Positions 4,699 to 10,766 of a stretch of 22,873 bases of DNA are shown here, in pieces. A model generated the notes under the pieces. That model did not search any database, was not told where the DNA came from, and saw nothing but the letters and a program-made list of their open reading frames with translations. Position numbers and translations under genes: made by a program. Within the stretch, counting starts at the first letter, position 1; each line of letters opens with the position of its first letter. Source of the DNA: a virus; the IMG/VR virus record IMGVR_UViG_3300044237_003362, positions 1 to 22,873 of that record; one strand, 5' to 3'.

Positions 4699-5817
4699 AT
4701 GGCAAGAACAATAAGAGATACATTAAAATCATTTTTTCAAACAGGTGATGTACCTACAGAAGGACAATATGTAGATTTAATAGATAGTAATTTAAATTTA
4801 TCTGAAAATAATACAGGAAATATAGACCTAACAGGTAATATAACAGCTTCAGGTAATATAAGTTCAAGTATAACATCAGAAATTGAAACAGGATTTTTTT
4901 CTACAAAAGGAGGTTTTATAACAGCTTCAGGACATATAAGTGCAAGTGGTAATTTAAGTTTACAAGGTACTGCATCTATTGAGGGATCCATATCAGCTTC
5001 GGGTTTTAGTGCAAGTGGATTTACTCAATTACAGGATTTTAGAGCAAAAATACCTAATAGTGGTGAAATTTTATTTATAGCTGGGGACCATGAGCTTGAA
5101 ATTAAGGATTTAAATGGTGTTCAAGGTTATTCTTTTGGAAATTTAGATGGTTTAGGAAATAATGATGCTCGTTTTCAAACTAATGGACAAATTTCTGCAA
5201 CAACTAGGGTAACTGCAAGTAGCTTTATAGCATCAACGAACATAACAGCCTCAGGTAATATAAGTGCAAGTGGAAATATAAGAGGAAATTCCCTTACATT
5301 AGGTAATACACTTATAACAGCTACAGGAACTGAGATAAACCATATAGATGGTTTAACATCAGCCGAAGCTAGCCAAATAAAAAATATAAATTCAACAACT
5401 ATTTCTTCAACACAATGGGGTTATGTTGGTAATATGAATCAAAATGTTAGTACTAGTACTGCTGTAAAATTTAGTGGATTAATTTTAGTAGAAACTACAA
5501 CAAATGTTGATGCATCATCAGCTACCTCTATTGCCCTAGGAGATGGTAGAGGTTCATATACAATTAATTTTAGTAATTTAGGACCAATACAAGCAAATGC
5601 AATATCAGACTACGTTTTTGCATTAACAGGTGATGTTTTTGATGGAAGAACTGGTGTTACTATAATGGGAAATTGTAATGAAATATCAGATACTATTGTA
5701 GTAGAGCCTGTATTCACATATGCAGGCAATAAAGGCAATTTACGTTTCCGTACTGGTAATGAAATATTTAGTGGAGGTAGTTTAGTAGTACATTTTACAA
5801 TAATATCACACGAATAA
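4699..5817 (+). CDS. Tail fibre / virion protein with ITASGNISASG repeats (fibre 1)
   Basis: A 372-aa elongated, probably trimeric fibre-like protein. The N-terminus, IRDTLKSFFQTGDVPTEGQY followed by VDLIDS, is an attachment-type head seen on phage structural proteins. Residues about 45-110 and 165-200 hold repeats of the type ITASGNISASGN, which suggest a beta-helical or triple-stranded shaft. A NHIDGLTSAEASQIKNI segment near residue 214 is a common fibre spacer. The C-terminal ~110 residues are a repeat-free, beta-rich domain (YTINFSNLGPI, VTIMGNC, LRFRTGNEIF, LVVHFTIISH), probably the outer or receptor-facing tip. It begins two bases after gp15 with no promoter element, so it is probably co-transcribed with the neck genes. 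Confidence 0.75.
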   Translation: MARTIRDTLKSFFQTGDVPTEGQYVDLIDSNLNLSENNTGNIDLTGNITASGNISSSITSEIETGFFSTKGGFITASGHISASGNLSLQGTASIEGSISASGFSASGFTQLQDFRAKIPNSGEILFIAGDHELEIKDLNGVQGYSFGNLDGLGNNDARFQTNGQISATTRVTASSFIASTNITASGNISASGNIRGNSLTLGNTLITATGTEINHIDGLTSAEASQIKNINSTTISSTQWGYVGNMNQNVSTSTAVKFSGLILVETTTNVDASSATSIALGDGRGSYTINFSNLGPIQANAISDYVFALTGDVFDGRTGVTIMGNCNEISDTIVVEPVFTYAGNKGNLRFRTGNEIFSGGSLVVHFTIISHE

Positions 5818-5842
5818 TATAATTATTTTCATTTAAAACTTT

Positions 5843-6148
5843 ATGGCTACACCAATACAGTGGGAAAATGCAAACTTTACATGGAATAATAATCCTCATA
5901 AATGGAATGAAGTTTTATTAGTAATTGAAGCCTTAGGTGGTGGGGGGGTTATGGTTGAAGACATGCCCTGGACTCGATTTAATGACGAAAAGAAAAAACG
6001 TCTTATAAAACTTATTTGTAAAGTTCAAGGTAAAACAATAAAAGAAGAAAAAGAAATCAGTAATTATAAAATCCAAATTTCTGATATTAAATTATTAGCT
6101 AAAGAAGTATTAGGTATAGAAATAATGACTGAAAATATTAAGTTTTAA
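5843..6148 (+). CDS. Small hypothetical protein in fibre island
   Basis: A 101-aa protein of unknown function. Its N-terminus is tryptophan-rich (IQWENANFTWNNNPHKWNEV), then a Gly-Gly-Gly-Gly turn, an amphipathic basic segment (RFNDEKKKRLIKLICKV), and a lysine/isoleucine-rich helical C-terminus ending in LLAKEVLGIEIMTENIKF. No signal peptide or membrane span is seen. The four-glycine turn is encoded across a G7 tract at 5942-5948, unusual in this AT-rich DNA. It sits 25 bases after fibre 1 without a recognisable promoter element, so it is probably on the same transcript. A fibre-associated structural or assembly role is only a guess from position. Confidence 0.72.
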   Translation: MATPIQWENANFTWNNNPHKWNEVLLVIEALGGGGVMVEDMPWTRFNDEKKKRLIKLICKVQGKTIKEEKEISNYKIQISDIKLLAKEVLGIEIMTENIKF

Positions 6149-6158
6149 TAAATACGAT

Positions 6159-6168
6159 ATATTTATAA
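6159..6168 (+). promoter_or_regulatory. Putative late promoter element
   Basis: ATATTTATAA lies 12 bases before the ATG at 6181 and is followed by CAAAATCTAATT. The AATCTAATT part is also found downstream of the element at 1525, so the shared signal may extend beyond the 10-base core. Confidence 0.5.
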
Positions 6169-6180
6169 CAAAATCTAATT

Positions 6181-6741
6181 ATGTATAAATTATTTACTGA
6201 TAAATCTGAGCTTTTTGAATGTGATATTAAGTTAGAGGGAGCCAGTTTAAGTAAATCTTCAGCACGTTTAGTAGTAGAAACATCAGACTATTCTTTACTT
6301 TTTAAAGGTAATATTAATTCTAAGGGAAAATGTGAAATTCCTATTAGAAAACTAAAAGGCCTTATAGATGAAAACACAACAGGAAGTATTAGACTAGAAG
6401 TTATTGCTGAAGATACTTATTTTACTCCTTGGGAAAGTGACTTTGAAGTAGATGTAAGTAAAAAGGTAACTGTAGAAGTTAAATCACAACAAACTAAAAA
6501 ACCTATAGTAGAAACTAAAGTAAAGGTTAATGTTAAAAATGAAAAACCAACTACTACAGAAAAACAACATGTTATAAATTTATTTAAATTATTAATAAAA
6601 GAAAATATAAACGTAAGTAATATTTCATTTAAACGTAATAAACTAAATAATATAGTAGCAACGTATTTACAAGAAAATACCGTAAAAAACACAAGTAAAG
6701 TTATTAATGGTGTATTAAAAATTCTTGAAAGAGAAAAATAA
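6181..6741 (+). CDS. Hypothetical protein with beta-rich N-terminal and basic helical C-terminal halves
   Basis: A 186-aa protein I cannot name. Residues 1-100 look like a beta sandwich: alternating strands such as ARLVVETSDYSLLFKGNI, then IRLEVIAEDTYF and WESDFEVDV. A lysine/threonine/valine-rich linker follows (about 100-125: KKVTVEVKSQQTKKPIVETK and similar). The last 60 residues are helical and basic (HVINLFKLLIKENINVSNIS, then VINGVLKILEREK). There are no membrane segments. It has its own promoter-like element and is followed nine bases later by fibre 2. The two-domain design suggests a virion or scaffold-type protein, but nothing in the sequence fixes a function. Confidence 0.75.
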   Translation: MYKLFTDKSELFECDIKLEGASLSKSSARLVVETSDYSLLFKGNINSKGKCEIPIRKLKGLIDENTTGSIRLEVIAEDTYFTPWESDFEVDVSKKVTVEVKSQQTKKPIVETKVKVNVKNEKPTTTEKQHVINLFKLLIKENINVSNISFKRNKLNNIVATYLQENTVKNTSKVINGVLKILEREK

Positions 6742-6750
6742 TGGTTATAA

Positions 6751-7482
6751 ATGGCAATCGAAAACTTCGAAGGAAAAAATATACAGGATACTTTTCAAAG
6801 GGTAGTCCAAACAGATGGAACTAATCAATTAGCTGATGGAACTGGTTCTATTTTTATACCTGTTTCTTCTTCACACGCTATAACGGCATCACATGCTTTA
6901 TTTGCAGTTTCTGCTTCACATGAGATTACATTTGAATTATCTTCATCACATGCTGTAAGCGCAGACACAGCTAGTTTTGCAACTAATTTTACAGCCTCAG
7001 GCAATATAAGTGCAAGCGGTGATATTACTGCAAATTCTGGTTCATTTAATCGTATAAGTGCAAGTGGAAATATATTAGGAAGTAATGTAATTGCTAATGA
7101 TCTTTTATTTGCACAAAAAATTTCTGTTTTAGGTAGTGATAATACTCATACTCATACATTTATTGGAAATATAACAGCATCAGGTAATGTAAAAATAACT
7201 AGCGCAGATCCAAATCTAAGAATTGAAGACACAAATGGTAGATCAGTAGAAATAGATGTAACAGATGATATTTTTAGAATAGATGATGTTGGAAATAATG
7301 CAGCTATATTTACTACAGATCTTTCAACAAATCCTACTCAAACTACTTTTCAAACAAAACCAACTTTTTTAAGAGATGCAGAATTTGAAGGCAGTATAAG
7401 TGCAAGTGGTAATATAACAGCTTCAGGTAATATAAGAGCAGGTGGAGAAATAATAGGAACTATAAATGGAGGAACTTTTTAG
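6751..7482 (+). CDS. Tail fibre-like protein with SSHA and ITASGNISASG repeats (fibre 2)
   Basis: A 243-aa fibre-like protein. Its N-terminal head (QDTFQRVVQTDGTNQLADGT) is a type seen on phage fibre or appendage proteins. It is followed by an imperfect small-residue repeat (SSSHAITASHALFAVSASHE, then SSSHAVSADTASFA) at about residues 33-75, then ISASGN/ITASGN shaft repeats at about 80-110, 140-150 and 214-231. A NLRIEDTNGRSVEIDV segment between the repeats is a typical fibre spacer. The C-terminus, GTINGGTF, matches the end of fibre 4 (SIINGGSF). There is no obvious globular receptor domain, so this may be a shaft or connector. The start at 6751 gives the conserved-looking head; an earlier ATG at 6741 is out of frame. 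Confidence 0.75.
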   Translation: MAIENFEGKNIQDTFQRVVQTDGTNQLADGTGSIFIPVSSSHAITASHALFAVSASHEITFELSSSHAVSADTASFATNFTASGNISASGDITANSGSFNRISASGNILGSNVIANDLLFAQKISVLGSDNTHTHTFIGNITASGNVKITSADPNLRIEDTNGRSVEIDVTDDIFRIDDVGNNAAIFTTDLSTNPTQTTFQTKPTFLRDAEFEGSISASGNITASGNIRAGGEIIGTINGGTF

Positions 7483-7492
7483 ATATTTATTA
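7483..7492 (+). promoter_or_regulatory. Putative late promoter element before fibre 3
   Basis: ATATTTATTA, one mismatch to the ATATTTATAA consensus, starts right after the fibre 2 stop codon and lies 15 bases before the fibre 3 ATG. The following TAGAATA resembles TAGAACA downstream of the 1525 element. Confidence 0.45.
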
Positions 7493-7507
7493 TAGAATAA
7501 AACAAAT

Positions 7508-9667
7508 ATGGCAAGTACAATACAATTAAAAACAGGAACGGGATCAGCAGTGCCTACTTCTTTAACACAAGGAGAAGTTGCTATTAATATAGATAATGGT
7601 CTTATTTATTATGGTTCTGGTTCTACTAATACAAGAAAACAATTAGAATCTTTTACTAATATAACAGCCTCAGGTAACATAAGTGCAAGTGGGAATCTTA
7701 CAGTTAATAATACAACAGCCTCAGGTGATATAAGTTCAAGTAATACAGTACAAGGTTTTACAGGTTCATTTCATTATATTAAAGTTACTGATAATTTAGA
7801 AGTTGATGGTGATTTAACAGTGGGGGGTACTGTTACTGCTCAAGAATTCCATACTGAGTTTATTTCATCATCTATAATTTTTGAAAGTGGTTCTACAATT
7901 TTTGGAAATTCAGCAGATGATACACATACTTTTTCAGGATCTATAACAGCCTCAGGTAACATAAGTTCAAGTGGTACAGTTACAGCAAACTCAATAGTAG
8001 GTACATTAGCAACAGCAGCACAAACAAACATAACATCACTAGGAACATTAACAACATTAACAGTAGATCATATAACAATTAATAGTTCCACAATATCTGA
8101 TAATAATGAACTTATTTTAGATGCAGGAGATAATATAATATTAGATACTGAAGAAGACATAATATTTAAAGATGATGGTACTACAAGGTATATATTTAAT
8201 GTAGATTCAACACCAGAGATAGATATAGTAGGAGATTTAATTATAGATCCGTCAGGAGGTGATGTAAAATTTTCAGGCGCAAATATAAATGTAGAAGGCC
8301 ATATAACAGCCTCAGGTAATATAAGTGCGAGTGGAGAATTATCAATTACTGATAATACATTTATAGGTGGAAGACTTTCTGTAAATACTACTTCTACATC
8401 AGCTAGAGTAAATGTAGTAGGAACTCAAGCTCACCAACTATCGGGGGGTTCAAATAGTTTTAAAATTACAGGAGTATCAAATGCAGATGCATTATTTGTT
8501 TCATCATCTGGAAAAGTTGGTATAGGAACAACTGAACCAACAGAAAAACTACAAGTAGAAGGTAACATAAGCGCGAGTGGAAATATAATAGCTGTTTCTG
8601 CATCTATACAACATCTAGATGGTCCTGAAGGTGGAGGAATTTCTTTTACTGGAGGTAATCCAACCCTTAAAGGAGAAGATGGAGCCCAAATAACATTAAC
8701 AGATGGTGCTACAATTTCTGGAGGTAATAATACATTAAGAGTTGGTACTATTGTAAATGTAAATACAACCCATATAACAGCCTCAGGTAATATAAGTGCG
8801 AGTGGAACAATTATAGCAAACTCAATAATAGGGGGAGATATAGATGGGGGACATATAACAATTAATAGTTCCACAATATCTGATAATAGTGACCTTACTT
8901 TAGATGCAGGAGGAGATATAACATTAGATACTGAAGAAGACATAATATTTAAAGAAGATGGTACTACAAGGTATATATTCAGAATGGACTCAACACCAGA
9001 GATAGATATAGTAGGAGATTTAATTATAGATCCGTCAGGAGGTGATGTAAAATTTTCAGGCGCAAATATAAATGTAGAAGGCCATATAACAGCCTCAGGT
9101 AATATAAGTGCAAGTGGAACTATAACTGCAGATGATGGATCAGGAAAACAATTTACTGTAAGACCTAATTTATATTTCTTTGCAACAAATACTAGTGCAA
9201 CTACTCAAACACTTCATGGATCAAATGCAGGAGACCAAGAAGGTTCTCTTCCAGCAACTAATACAACAACAATTACCTTATCTCAACAACAAAATAGCCA
9301 CAGTAGTGTATTTAGTTTATCTAGTAATAGATTAACTATATCTAGAGCAGGTTTATATAAATTTACTTACAATGCTGTAATAGAAATAAATAATGGTTCA
9401 GGTAGAGCAGAAGGTTTTTGTGGATTAGTTCAAGAAACTAGTGCTGGTGATGTTACACTAGTTAATGGATCAGAAGCTAGAGGATATCATAGATTTAAAC
9501 ACGATCAAGGACCTTCAGGGGTAACTTTTGCAGCTACTGTTATTGTAAATGTAGCTGCAAATTCTATATATGATTTAAGATTTGGTCAAGAAGACCAATC
9601 TGTTGCAGGTGCTCAATTAAGAACATTACCTTCAGGTACTGCAATAACAGTAGAAGCAATAACTTAA
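7508..9667 (+). CDS. Large tail fibre with Mtd-type N-terminus and C1q/TNF-like C-terminal candidate (fibre 3)
   Basis: A 719-aa fibre, the largest in the island and the best candidate receptor-binding protein. Residues 1-45 (TIQLKTGTGSAVPTSLTQGE, then a DNGLIYYGSG motif) resemble the N-terminal domain of phage tropism-determinant proteins. The shaft has at least seven ITASGNISASG-type units. KVGIGTTEPTEKLQVEGNIS at about 336-355 is a spacer common in fibres carrying C-terminal tips. Two near-identical 89-residue blocks (8069-8335 and 8852-9118) are in-frame duplicates. From about residue 546 on, the repeat-free C-terminus has strands such as FSLSSNRLTISRAGLYKFTY and ends TAITVEAIT, a pattern typical of C1q/TNF-like jelly-roll trimers. 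The jelly-roll call is inference from strand pattern. Confidence 0.8.
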   Translation: MASTIQLKTGTGSAVPTSLTQGEVAINIDNGLIYYGSGSTNTRKQLESFTNITASGNISASGNLTVNNTTASGDISSSNTVQGFTGSFHYIKVTDNLEVDGDLTVGGTVTAQEFHTEFISSSIIFESGSTIFGNSADDTHTFSGSITASGNISSSGTVTANSIVGTLATAAQTNITSLGTLTTLTVDHITINSSTISDNNELILDAGDNIILDTEEDIIFKDDGTTRYIFNVDSTPEIDIVGDLIIDPSGGDVKFSGANINVEGHITASGNISASGELSITDNTFIGGRLSVNTTSTSARVNVVGTQAHQLSGGSNSFKITGVSNADALFVSSSGKVGIGTTEPTEKLQVEGNISASGNIIAVSASIQHLDGPEGGGISFTGGNPTLKGEDGAQITLTDGATISGGNNTLRVGTIVNVNTTHITASGNISASGTIIANSIIGGDIDGGHITINSSTISDNSDLTLDAGGDITLDTEEDIIFKEDGTTRYIFRMDSTPEIDIVGDLIIDPSGGDVKFSGANINVEGHITASGNISASGTITADDGSGKQFTVRPNLYFFATNTSATTQTLHGSNAGDQEGSLPATNTTTITLSQQQNSHSSVFSLSSNRLTISRAGLYKFTYNAVIEINNGSGRAEGFCGLVQETSAGDVTLVNGSEARGYHRFKHDQGPSGVTFAATVIVNVAANSIYDLRFGQEDQSVAGAQLRTLPSGTAITVEAIT
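8069..8335 (+). repeat. 267-bp in-frame direct repeat, copy 1
   Basis: Pairs without gaps with 8852-9118, offset 783 bases (261 codons). Bases 8207-8328 are identical to 8990-9111, a perfect 122-bp run, while the 5' part of the repeat has scattered substitutions. It encodes the block from ITINSSTIS through INVEGHITASGNISASG. Confidence 0.9.
8852..9118 (+). repeat. 267-bp in-frame direct repeat, copy 2
   Basis: Second copy of the 8069-8335 block, at a distance divisible by three. It lies just before the C1q-like candidate domain, so recombination between copies would shorten or lengthen the shaft by 261 residues and leave the tip in frame. Confidence 0.9.
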
Positions 9668-9678
9668 AAGTAAATAAC

Positions 9679-9858
9679 ATGTCAAACATAAATTCTATAA
9701 ATAGTGGTTCTTTAGGAGATATTCCTAAAGCAGAAATACGAACAGATAAAACACTTAACGAATTAGAAACAATTAATGGTGAAGCATATATATTTAGACT
9801 ATTAATTGAAAAAATAAATGAATTAGTTGATGAAGTAAATATATTAAAAAACCAATAA
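9679..9858 (+). CDS. 59-aa coiled-coil protein between fibres 3 and 4
   Basis: A short reading frame starting ATG at 9679 and ending TAA at 9858, filling the gap between two fibre genes in step with its neighbours (12 bases after fibre 3). The product begins MSNINSINSGSLGDIPKAEI and continues with a 35-residue amphipathic helix whose hydrophobic spacing (TLNELETI, FRLLIEKINELVDEVNILKN) suggests a short coiled coil. It is supported by the same codon style as its neighbours and the complete filling of the gap. It may be a small fibre-associated oligomerisation or assembly protein; the function is a guess. Confidence 0.62.
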   Translation: MSNINSINSGSLGDIPKAEIRTDKTLNELETINGEAYIFRLLIEKINELVDEVNILKNQ

Positions 9859-9859
9859 T

Positions 9860-9869
9860 ATATTTATAA
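9860..9869 (+). promoter_or_regulatory. Putative late promoter element before fibre 4
   Basis: An exact ATATTTATAA copy only three bases before the fibre 4 ATG. If it is a -10 promoter, transcription would start at or inside the start codon, so fibre 4 would be leaderless or start further in. This tight spacing is the main difficulty for the promoter reading. Confidence 0.42.
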
Positions 9870-9872
9870 TAT

Positions 9873-10766
9873 ATGACTATAAGAACTAAAAATAAAGACC
9901 CTAAATCTACAGAATTTTCTCCTAATGATATTATTATTAATACAAAAGATGGAGTTTTATTTTATAAATCAGATACAGGTTTATTTAAAGTTCAAGGAGA
10001 TAATATAAATACTTCAGTAACAGAATCTGCCTCAACAACTTCTATTCCAGATGGAACAATTTCAAGTTCGTTACAAAATTTAGGCAATATAACAGGCTCA
10101 AATATAAGTGCAAGTGGTGATATAACGGCAAATACTCTTACTTTAGATGGAGGAACCACTCAAACTATTAAAGGACCAGTATTAGGTTTTGATTCTGCGG
10201 GACAAATAAGACTAGATTCAGCGGGCTCAACAATTACTTTTTCTAAAAACGGTGTGAGTGCATTTGTAATTAACCCTGGTAATAATTCACATGATTTTAC
10301 AGGAAACATAACAGCCTCTTCTCCAGGTCACATAAGTGCAAGCGCAACTTCTACAGGATCATTTGGTAGACTAGAATGTTTAACTATTTCTGCCTCAACA
10401 GGTGAGTTTGATGATGATAGTATAAAAATTGGAGGAGAATCTCTTAATAAATCAAATTTAGTAAATTTAAAAGCGGGAAGACCTATAACAACAGCTAGTG
10501 CAAATTTACTTCGAGAAGGCTCAGCTGAAAGTGATGATACTTCTACAAAATTTACAAAAGTAGAAGCATTAATACATGAAAATGATGATAGAACTTTTTT
10601 AAAATTCAAATCACCTGCTAGAATAGCAACATTTGTAAGTGGTGTATTATTTCAGGATTTAAATAATCTTAATACTAATAATTATTTTAAAGTAGGCGTA
10701 GGAACAACAAATCTAATACTATCAGGAAGTATAACAGGATCTATAATTAATGGTGGGTCTTTCTAA
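9873..10766 (+). CDS. Tail fibre-like protein (fibre 4)
   Basis: A 297-aa fibre-like protein. The N-terminal segment (TIRTKNKDPKSTEFSPNDII followed by a DGVLFYKS motif) is laid out like the fibre 3 head: an extended R/K-rich strand, a P/D turn, then I-N-x-x-DG-x-x-x-Y. It may therefore be a divergent version of the same attachment domain. Shaft repeats are sparser than in the other fibres (ITGSNISASGDITAN at about residues 73-87 and near 147-160). The last third (about 200-285) is less repetitive, with charged stretches (SAESDDTSTKFTKVEALIHE). The C-terminus SGSITGSIINGGSF is close to the end of fibre 2. It lies 35 bases before the 10802 gene. Confidence 0.72.
   Translation: MTIRTKNKDPKSTEFSPNDIIINTKDGVLFYKSDTGLFKVQGDNINTSVTESASTTSIPDGTISSSLQNLGNITGSNISASGDITANTLTLDGGTTQTIKGPVLGFDSAGQIRLDSAGSTITFSKNGVSAFVINPGNNSHDFTGNITASSPGHISASATSTGSFGRLECLTISASTGEFDDDSIKIGGESLNKSNLVNLKAGRPITTASANLLREGSAESDDTSTKFTKVEALIHENDDRTFLKFKSPARIATFVSGVLFQDLNNLNTNNYFKVGVGTTNLILSGSITGSIINGGSF

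Follow-up and report, generated by a model that had tools for sequence, protein, structure and literature searches.

How a fibre-like gene comes to hold two separated, nearly identical copies of one segment, and what this tells about how such genes are rebuilt, is the question raised by the 719-aa open reading frame shown above. It lies in an IMG/VR virus record whose first 22,873 nucleotides, the whole stretch analyzed, are referred to here as the window. Fibre islands that vary among marine phages are known; the way in which they are rebuilt is less so. Coordinates of all features are those of the window and are collected in Table 1.

Table 1. Features of the fibre-like gene and its surroundings, in window coordinates
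Feature	Position	Strand	Basis
Fibre block between syntenic flanks	about 4699..10766	+	tblastn comparison with immuto and Mel-JY01
Fibre-like gene, 719 aa, made of cassettes	7508..9667	+	ORF; linker-joined cassettes
Mtd_N-like N-terminal domain (residues 5-40)	7508..7628	+	PF18454, weak match
Linker copy ITASGNISASG	7660..7692	+	motif match
Linker-to-linker cassette, copy 1	7942..8335	+	315/340 aligned positions identical to 8773-9118
Duplicated unit, copy 1	8069..8335	+	copy alignment
Copy 1 variable stretch	8106..8206	+	holds 14/15 differences
122-bp core	8207..8328	+	identical to 8990-9111
Linker copy at end of copy 1	8302..8335	+	motif match
Cassette between two linkers	8563..8803	+	90.9% identical to L004/L005
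Linker-to-linker cassette, copy 2	8773..9118	+	alignment with 7942-8335
Duplicated unit, copy 2	8852..9118	+	copy alignment
L003 variant tract in copy 2, 87 bp	8903..8989	+	21 differences
Linker copy at end of copy 2	9085..9118	+	motif match
C-terminal tip, possibly BclA/C1q-like	9119..9664	+	weak BclA_C match

A fibre-like gene in a variable block

The window is from an uncultured marine myovirus. By PHROGs, the flanking genes match a major head protein, PhoH, a head-tail adaptor, sheath, tube, and baseplate hub, and the fibre-like gene thus sits among genes for the virion structure of a contractile-tail phage. Among named phages, a stretch of Flavobacterium phage vB_FspM_immuto_2-6A matched 12 of the 22 window proteins in the same order (27-55% identity), and a stretch of Microcystis phage Mel-JY01 matched 11 of the 22, also in the same order. 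In gene order and in the similarity of its structural proteins, the window thus resembles an Immutovirus-like lineage. Both named stretches are like the window in the order of homologues around the fibre block but unlike it within the block, whose ORFs (4699-10763) gave no tblastn match to either stretch at E ≤ 1e-4.

No family in Pfam or PHROGs was matched by the whole 719-aa protein at E ≤ 0.01, and tblastn of the protein against 50,697 phage records gave no match at E ≤ 1e-5. Residues 1-51 matched PF18454 (Mtd_N) at E 1.7e-4, which is below the curated cut-off, and Mtd_N was found at E ≤ 0.01 in 24 of 29 aligned homologous N termini (best 1.2e-7); an AlphaFold model of the N terminus (mean pLDDT 68.9) had no Foldseek match at E ≤ 0.001. 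At the other end of the protein, the C-terminal tip matched BclA_C at E about 2e-4, again below the curated cut-off, and is 70% identical to the tip of L026, one of the related contigs; its AlphaFold model was unusable (mean pLDDT 47). In sequence searches of the PDB, residues 318-365 aligned over a short stretch with a cell wall surface anchor family protein, 8ol4 (E 2.7e-4); all other matches had E > 0.2. Given the Mtd_N-like N terminus, the BclA_C-like C terminus, and the position of the gene, the protein is probably a receptor-binding fibre, with the repeat region as its presumed shaft. When searched on its own against the phage records at E ≤ 10, the bare 89-aa module had four matches, the best being two records of Pelagibacter phage HTVC008M (38%, E 3e-3), and a peptide pattern run against genome contigs matched 43 stretches, 0 of which were confirmed. 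In HTVC008M (L028), the distant relative of the duplicated module, seen in four places, was noted at 5001-5216, where the annotated gene is a baseplate wedge initiator.

A short element, ATATTTATAA, was observed in seven copies across the window (at 1525, 6159, 9860, 11116, 14165, 17843, and 21186), all on the + strand, as compared to a mean of 1.02 in shuffled sequence. Since each of the first six copies precedes an ORF start by no more than about 100 bp, it may serve as a promoter element of the phage.

Two copies of one cassette in a mosaic gene

The peptide ITASGNISASG, referred to here as the linker, is repeated through the window gene (six copies) and the adjacent ORFs, and reaches 17 copies in one ORF of L189. 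The best relatives of the window gene differ part by part along its length: the closest to 7508-7692 is L132 (94% identity), to 7942-8077 L087 (88%), and to 9083-9667 L026/L027 (79%), with several matches beginning or stopping at linker copies. L004/L005, the closest match to the cassette at 8563-8803, share about 76-86% identity with the window in their other matching stretches, which lie over upstream genes. Judged from these matches, the window gene is a mosaic of cassettes joined by ITASGNISASG.

The repeat within this gene, described in an earlier note as an in-frame, gapless duplication of 267 bp at an offset of 783, proved exact. The two copies are identical at 252 of 267 bases (94.4%), lie in codon phase 0 of the ORF, and are not adjacent, being separated by a gap of 516 bp. 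The accompanying description of a perfect 122-bp core downstream of a diverged part was likewise borne out, as 14 of the 15 differences between the copies fall at 8106-8206 and the remaining one at 8329. Were 15 differences placed randomly in 267 positions, a run of at least 122 identical bases would be expected with P = 0.0013. The dN/dS of the variable stretch, which is based on few changes, is 0.6-1.0. As drawn in the earlier note, the left end of the repeat is away from any linker; the upstream similarity probably reaches the linker at 7942 and 8773, beyond a 48-bp length difference.

Two further IMG/VR records with other sample numbers, L001 and L002, match the window at 99.9% identity, and both retain the two copies at an offset of 783 within an ORF of 719 aa. 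All record and contig comparisons reported here are of assembled sequences; because both copies are present in L001, L002, and the window, a one-off assembly error is unlikely. The change of 261 codons that was predicted to follow from recombination between the copies was not seen, as two of the two other spanning records keep 783 bp and 719 aa. A third near-identical record, L003, begins at 8686 and consequently spans copy 2 only. L003 differs from L002 at 22 positions over 7.1 kb, 21 of them within 8903-8989, and from the window at the 21 positions of this tract and six elsewhere. At 10 of the 21 variant sites L003 agrees with copy 1, and at 11 with neither window copy; at five more positions that distinguish the copies, it has the base of copy 2. 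We read the tract as another allele of copy 2, apparently replaced by recombination. The clustering of differences between the copies and the 87-bp tract of L003 together support the earlier proposal of recent gene conversion or duplication.

The Mtd_N-like N terminus prompted consideration of a diversity-generating retroelement, which was not supported: of the sites that vary among copy 1, copy 2, and L003, seven are T/G or T/C, in addition to A sites. No reverse transcriptase was found among the PHROG matches of 20 of the 22 ORFs in the window, itself a fragment.

Breakpoints, codon choice, and the origin of the repeat

Related fibre loci were collected with three linker-pattern scans, which together with the earlier relatives and the window gave at least 254 contig groups; drawn by linker patterns from the matches listed, this set is neither complete nor unbiased. 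At least 94 contig pairs have in common an HSP that is 1 kb or longer, at 95% identity or more. Alignment ends were taken from HSPs of at least 250 bp at 95% or more when the end lay 60 bp or more inside both loci, yielding at least 65 ends. The 27 ends that belong to HSPs of at least 1 kb were kept and collapsed by hand to 14 breakpoints, and the other 38, including the cassette matches L090/L251 and L057/L157, were left uncounted. Among the matches listed, seven of the 14 breakpoints have both sides no more than 8 bp from a linker, as compared to 0.95 expected from the linker coverage of the ORFs; the simulated P is about 1e-5, a post hoc value for hand-collapsed breakpoints in contigs fetched by linker.

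Three of the seven linker breakpoints have sequence matched on both sides. L026 and L027 (99.99% identical over 8.9 kb) differ by 87 bp, or 29 codons, bounded by a 27-bp perfect direct repeat in the linker; the matching flanks are 244 bases long, counting the repeat, and 8.9 kb long. L068 and L200 (100.0% identical over 9.5 kb) differ by 198 bp, or 66 codons, between linkers that match at 27 of their 29 bases; one flank is the 9.5 kb at 100.0%, and the other consists of 95 identical bases. Each of these two pairs differs by one linker-to-linker cassette. In the third pair, L034/L220 (95.3% and 97.8% identical on the two sides), one module is replaced by another, with open frames of 711 and 633 codons, the left joint at a linker, and the right joint elsewhere. 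The breakpoints of L032/L204, L076/L119, L096/L224, and L277/L279 are matched on one side only and are weaker; the joints of the last three pairs are near a locus end (64-73 bp from the end of both loci for L096/L224), such that misassembly is possible. L034/L220 and L032/L204, being 95-98% identical, are outside the near-identical range. Contig pairs also cross linker copies without a break in at least 428 instances (pair by copy), which indicates that change events are rare at this scale.

Length change was also seen at a repeat other than the linker. L263 differs from L088, L258, L269, L275, and L278 (98.7-99.4% identical) by 162 bp, or 54 codons, with long matching stretches on both sides; these five contigs have three repeat units where L263 has one, and share its end. 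The 338-codon fibre ORF of L263 contains one NTGQGANELY unit and the 392-codon ORF of L275 contains three, with identical ends. The earlier suggestion that fibre length varies while the tip is preserved thus holds for near-identical relatives (L263 and its five counterparts, L026/L027, and L068/L200), but only at repeats other than the one for which it was made. Two small clusters of differences were noted in fibre genes that are otherwise near-identical, one of seven differences in about 20 bp (L091 1008-1028, compared with L123) and one of four differences in 20 bp at a linker (L049 6375-6394, compared with L083); these suggest short conversion tracts (positions of both clusters are in the orientation used for analysis).

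Of 297 linker-bearing ORFs among the matches listed, 28, the window's included, contain internal repeats 120 bp or longer with 85% identity or more, and the duplication examined here is therefore ordinary for the family. Repeat offsets are in frame in 62 of 63 cases among the matches listed, although some of the repeat-bearing ORFs are mutually near-identical and the counts are accordingly not independent. Repeat ends coincide with a linker on both copies at 17 of 126 ends among the matches listed, versus about 8.4 expected; linkers thus leave most internal duplications unexplained, and a role as their main cause is unsupported.

The linker is distinctive at the level of DNA. The alanine of TASG is encoded by GCC in 54% of 693 linker copies, as compared to 7% of other alanines (236 ORFs from other contigs, among the matches listed), and in the window by GCC at seven of nine linker positions, as compared to 5% of 62 other alanines. 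When only the 287 copies that match no fetch pattern are considered (134 contigs, among the matches listed), GCC is used in 45% versus 6.7% elsewhere, and serine 8 is AGT in 75% versus 29% of other serines; the AGT value of 90% over all linker copies is inflated by the fetch patterns. All linker copies (1160 of 1160 among the matches listed, both strands examined) are in one codon phase and on the linker-rich strand of their locus. The linker is present in at least 71 contigs whose identity to the window, in the best sheath match, is 35-77%, and a 36-base form gave no blastn match at E ≤ 1 among the 50,697 phage records. Such codon choice would be unexpected from selection on the protein alone and would be expected from spread or homogenization by recombination.

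The likely explanation of the repeat, in our judgment, is a duplicated cassette in a mosaic fibre gene that is shuffled by linker and cassette recombination. The fibre would be a string of cassettes separated by ITASGNISASG, a linker of unusually conserved DNA. Cassettes would be moved, inserted, or deleted in frame when linker copies of one genome, or of co-infecting phages, undergo homologous recombination, and recombination between longer homologous cassettes would convert tracts inside them. In the window gene, the outcome would be two copies of one cassette, with the core unchanged and the head exchanged. We infer that linker recombination caused the observed changes and that selection favors change in the fibre. 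A broader proposal, made tentatively, is that the linker could be a lineage-wide recombination joint kept as DNA, scattered many times through fibre genes, by which uncultured marine myoviruses that have little else in common would trade single cassettes from a common pool; if true, each genome would be one draw from a shared cassette pool, and fibre length and content would shift within populations.

A somewhat unlikely alternative to linker-directed exchange is that the linker is a mere conserved structural element, with cassettes exchanging anywhere and alignments running on through it. The uniform codon phase of the linker copies is what a protein element would show, and the ends of internal repeats are only weakly tied to linkers; against this, linker codons depart from those of their own ORFs even in copies independent of the fetch patterns, and L026/L027 and L068/L200 each differ by one linker-to-linker cassette. 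Replication slippage followed by point mutation, with no gene conversion, is less probable again as the source of the two copies. The in-frame offset, and the in-frame repeats of other family members, are compatible with slippage, but the copies are 516 bp apart, their differences are clustered, and L003 differs from L002 at 21 sites in 87 bp versus one in the rest of 7.1 kb. That repeat collapse or chimerism during assembly produced the copies or their variants appears very improbable. These are metagenome contigs, some of which start in or near fibre genes, and L003 itself starts 217 bp upstream of its variant tract; yet the window, L001, and L002 concur on both copies, 11 bases of the L003 tract occur in neither window copy, and L263 and its five counterparts are matched over long stretches on both sides of their difference.

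Relation to known systems of fibre exchange

Conserved motifs in T4-type fibre genes, as Tetart reportedly described in 1998, are joints for the exchange of fibre segments. The window family is like the T4-type phages in having conserved fibre-gene motifs as candidate exchange joints, and here too breakpoints between close relatives fall in the conserved motif (seven of 14 versus 0.95, a post hoc comparison of hand-collapsed breakpoints in motif-fetched contigs). It appears to differ from T4 in that a single in-frame linker recurs throughout a gene, in many copies, and bounds the gain or loss of single cassettes. An excerpt of one account describes frequent shuffling of gp37 and gp38 domains (PMC3797505). 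For E. coli phages, the excerpted text of a further study proposes conserved DNA motifs at receptor-binding domains as recombination hotspots, namely three distinct motifs of 44, 95, and 20 bp upstream and downstream of the domain, the presence of which was uncorrelated with the number of recombination events (PMC10408124). As far as that excerpt goes, these motifs resemble the linker as conserved DNA proposed to serve module recombination, and differ from it in that the linker is the same motif repeated inside the gene.

In marine phages, metaviromic islands and host recognition clusters are described, in excerpts of two reports, as variable genes between conserved structural genes, with host-recognition genes that carry tail fibre, C1q-like, or Mtd domains (PMC3909814, PMC7029224). 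The window is reminiscent of these islands in its variable putative host-recognition genes amid conserved structural genes; the excerpts of both reports make no mention of a shared linker or cassette joint. Literature searches by linker letters and by topic found no description of the linker, the one letter match (antibody panning) being judged unrelated, and an earlier description is possible. While motif-driven shuffling of fibres is known, the occurrence of many codon-conserved, in-frame linkers per gene across diverse uncultured phages looks new. A repeated, codon-conserved linker at breakpoints between near-identical contigs provides a concrete joint, the use of which can be counted in long reads.
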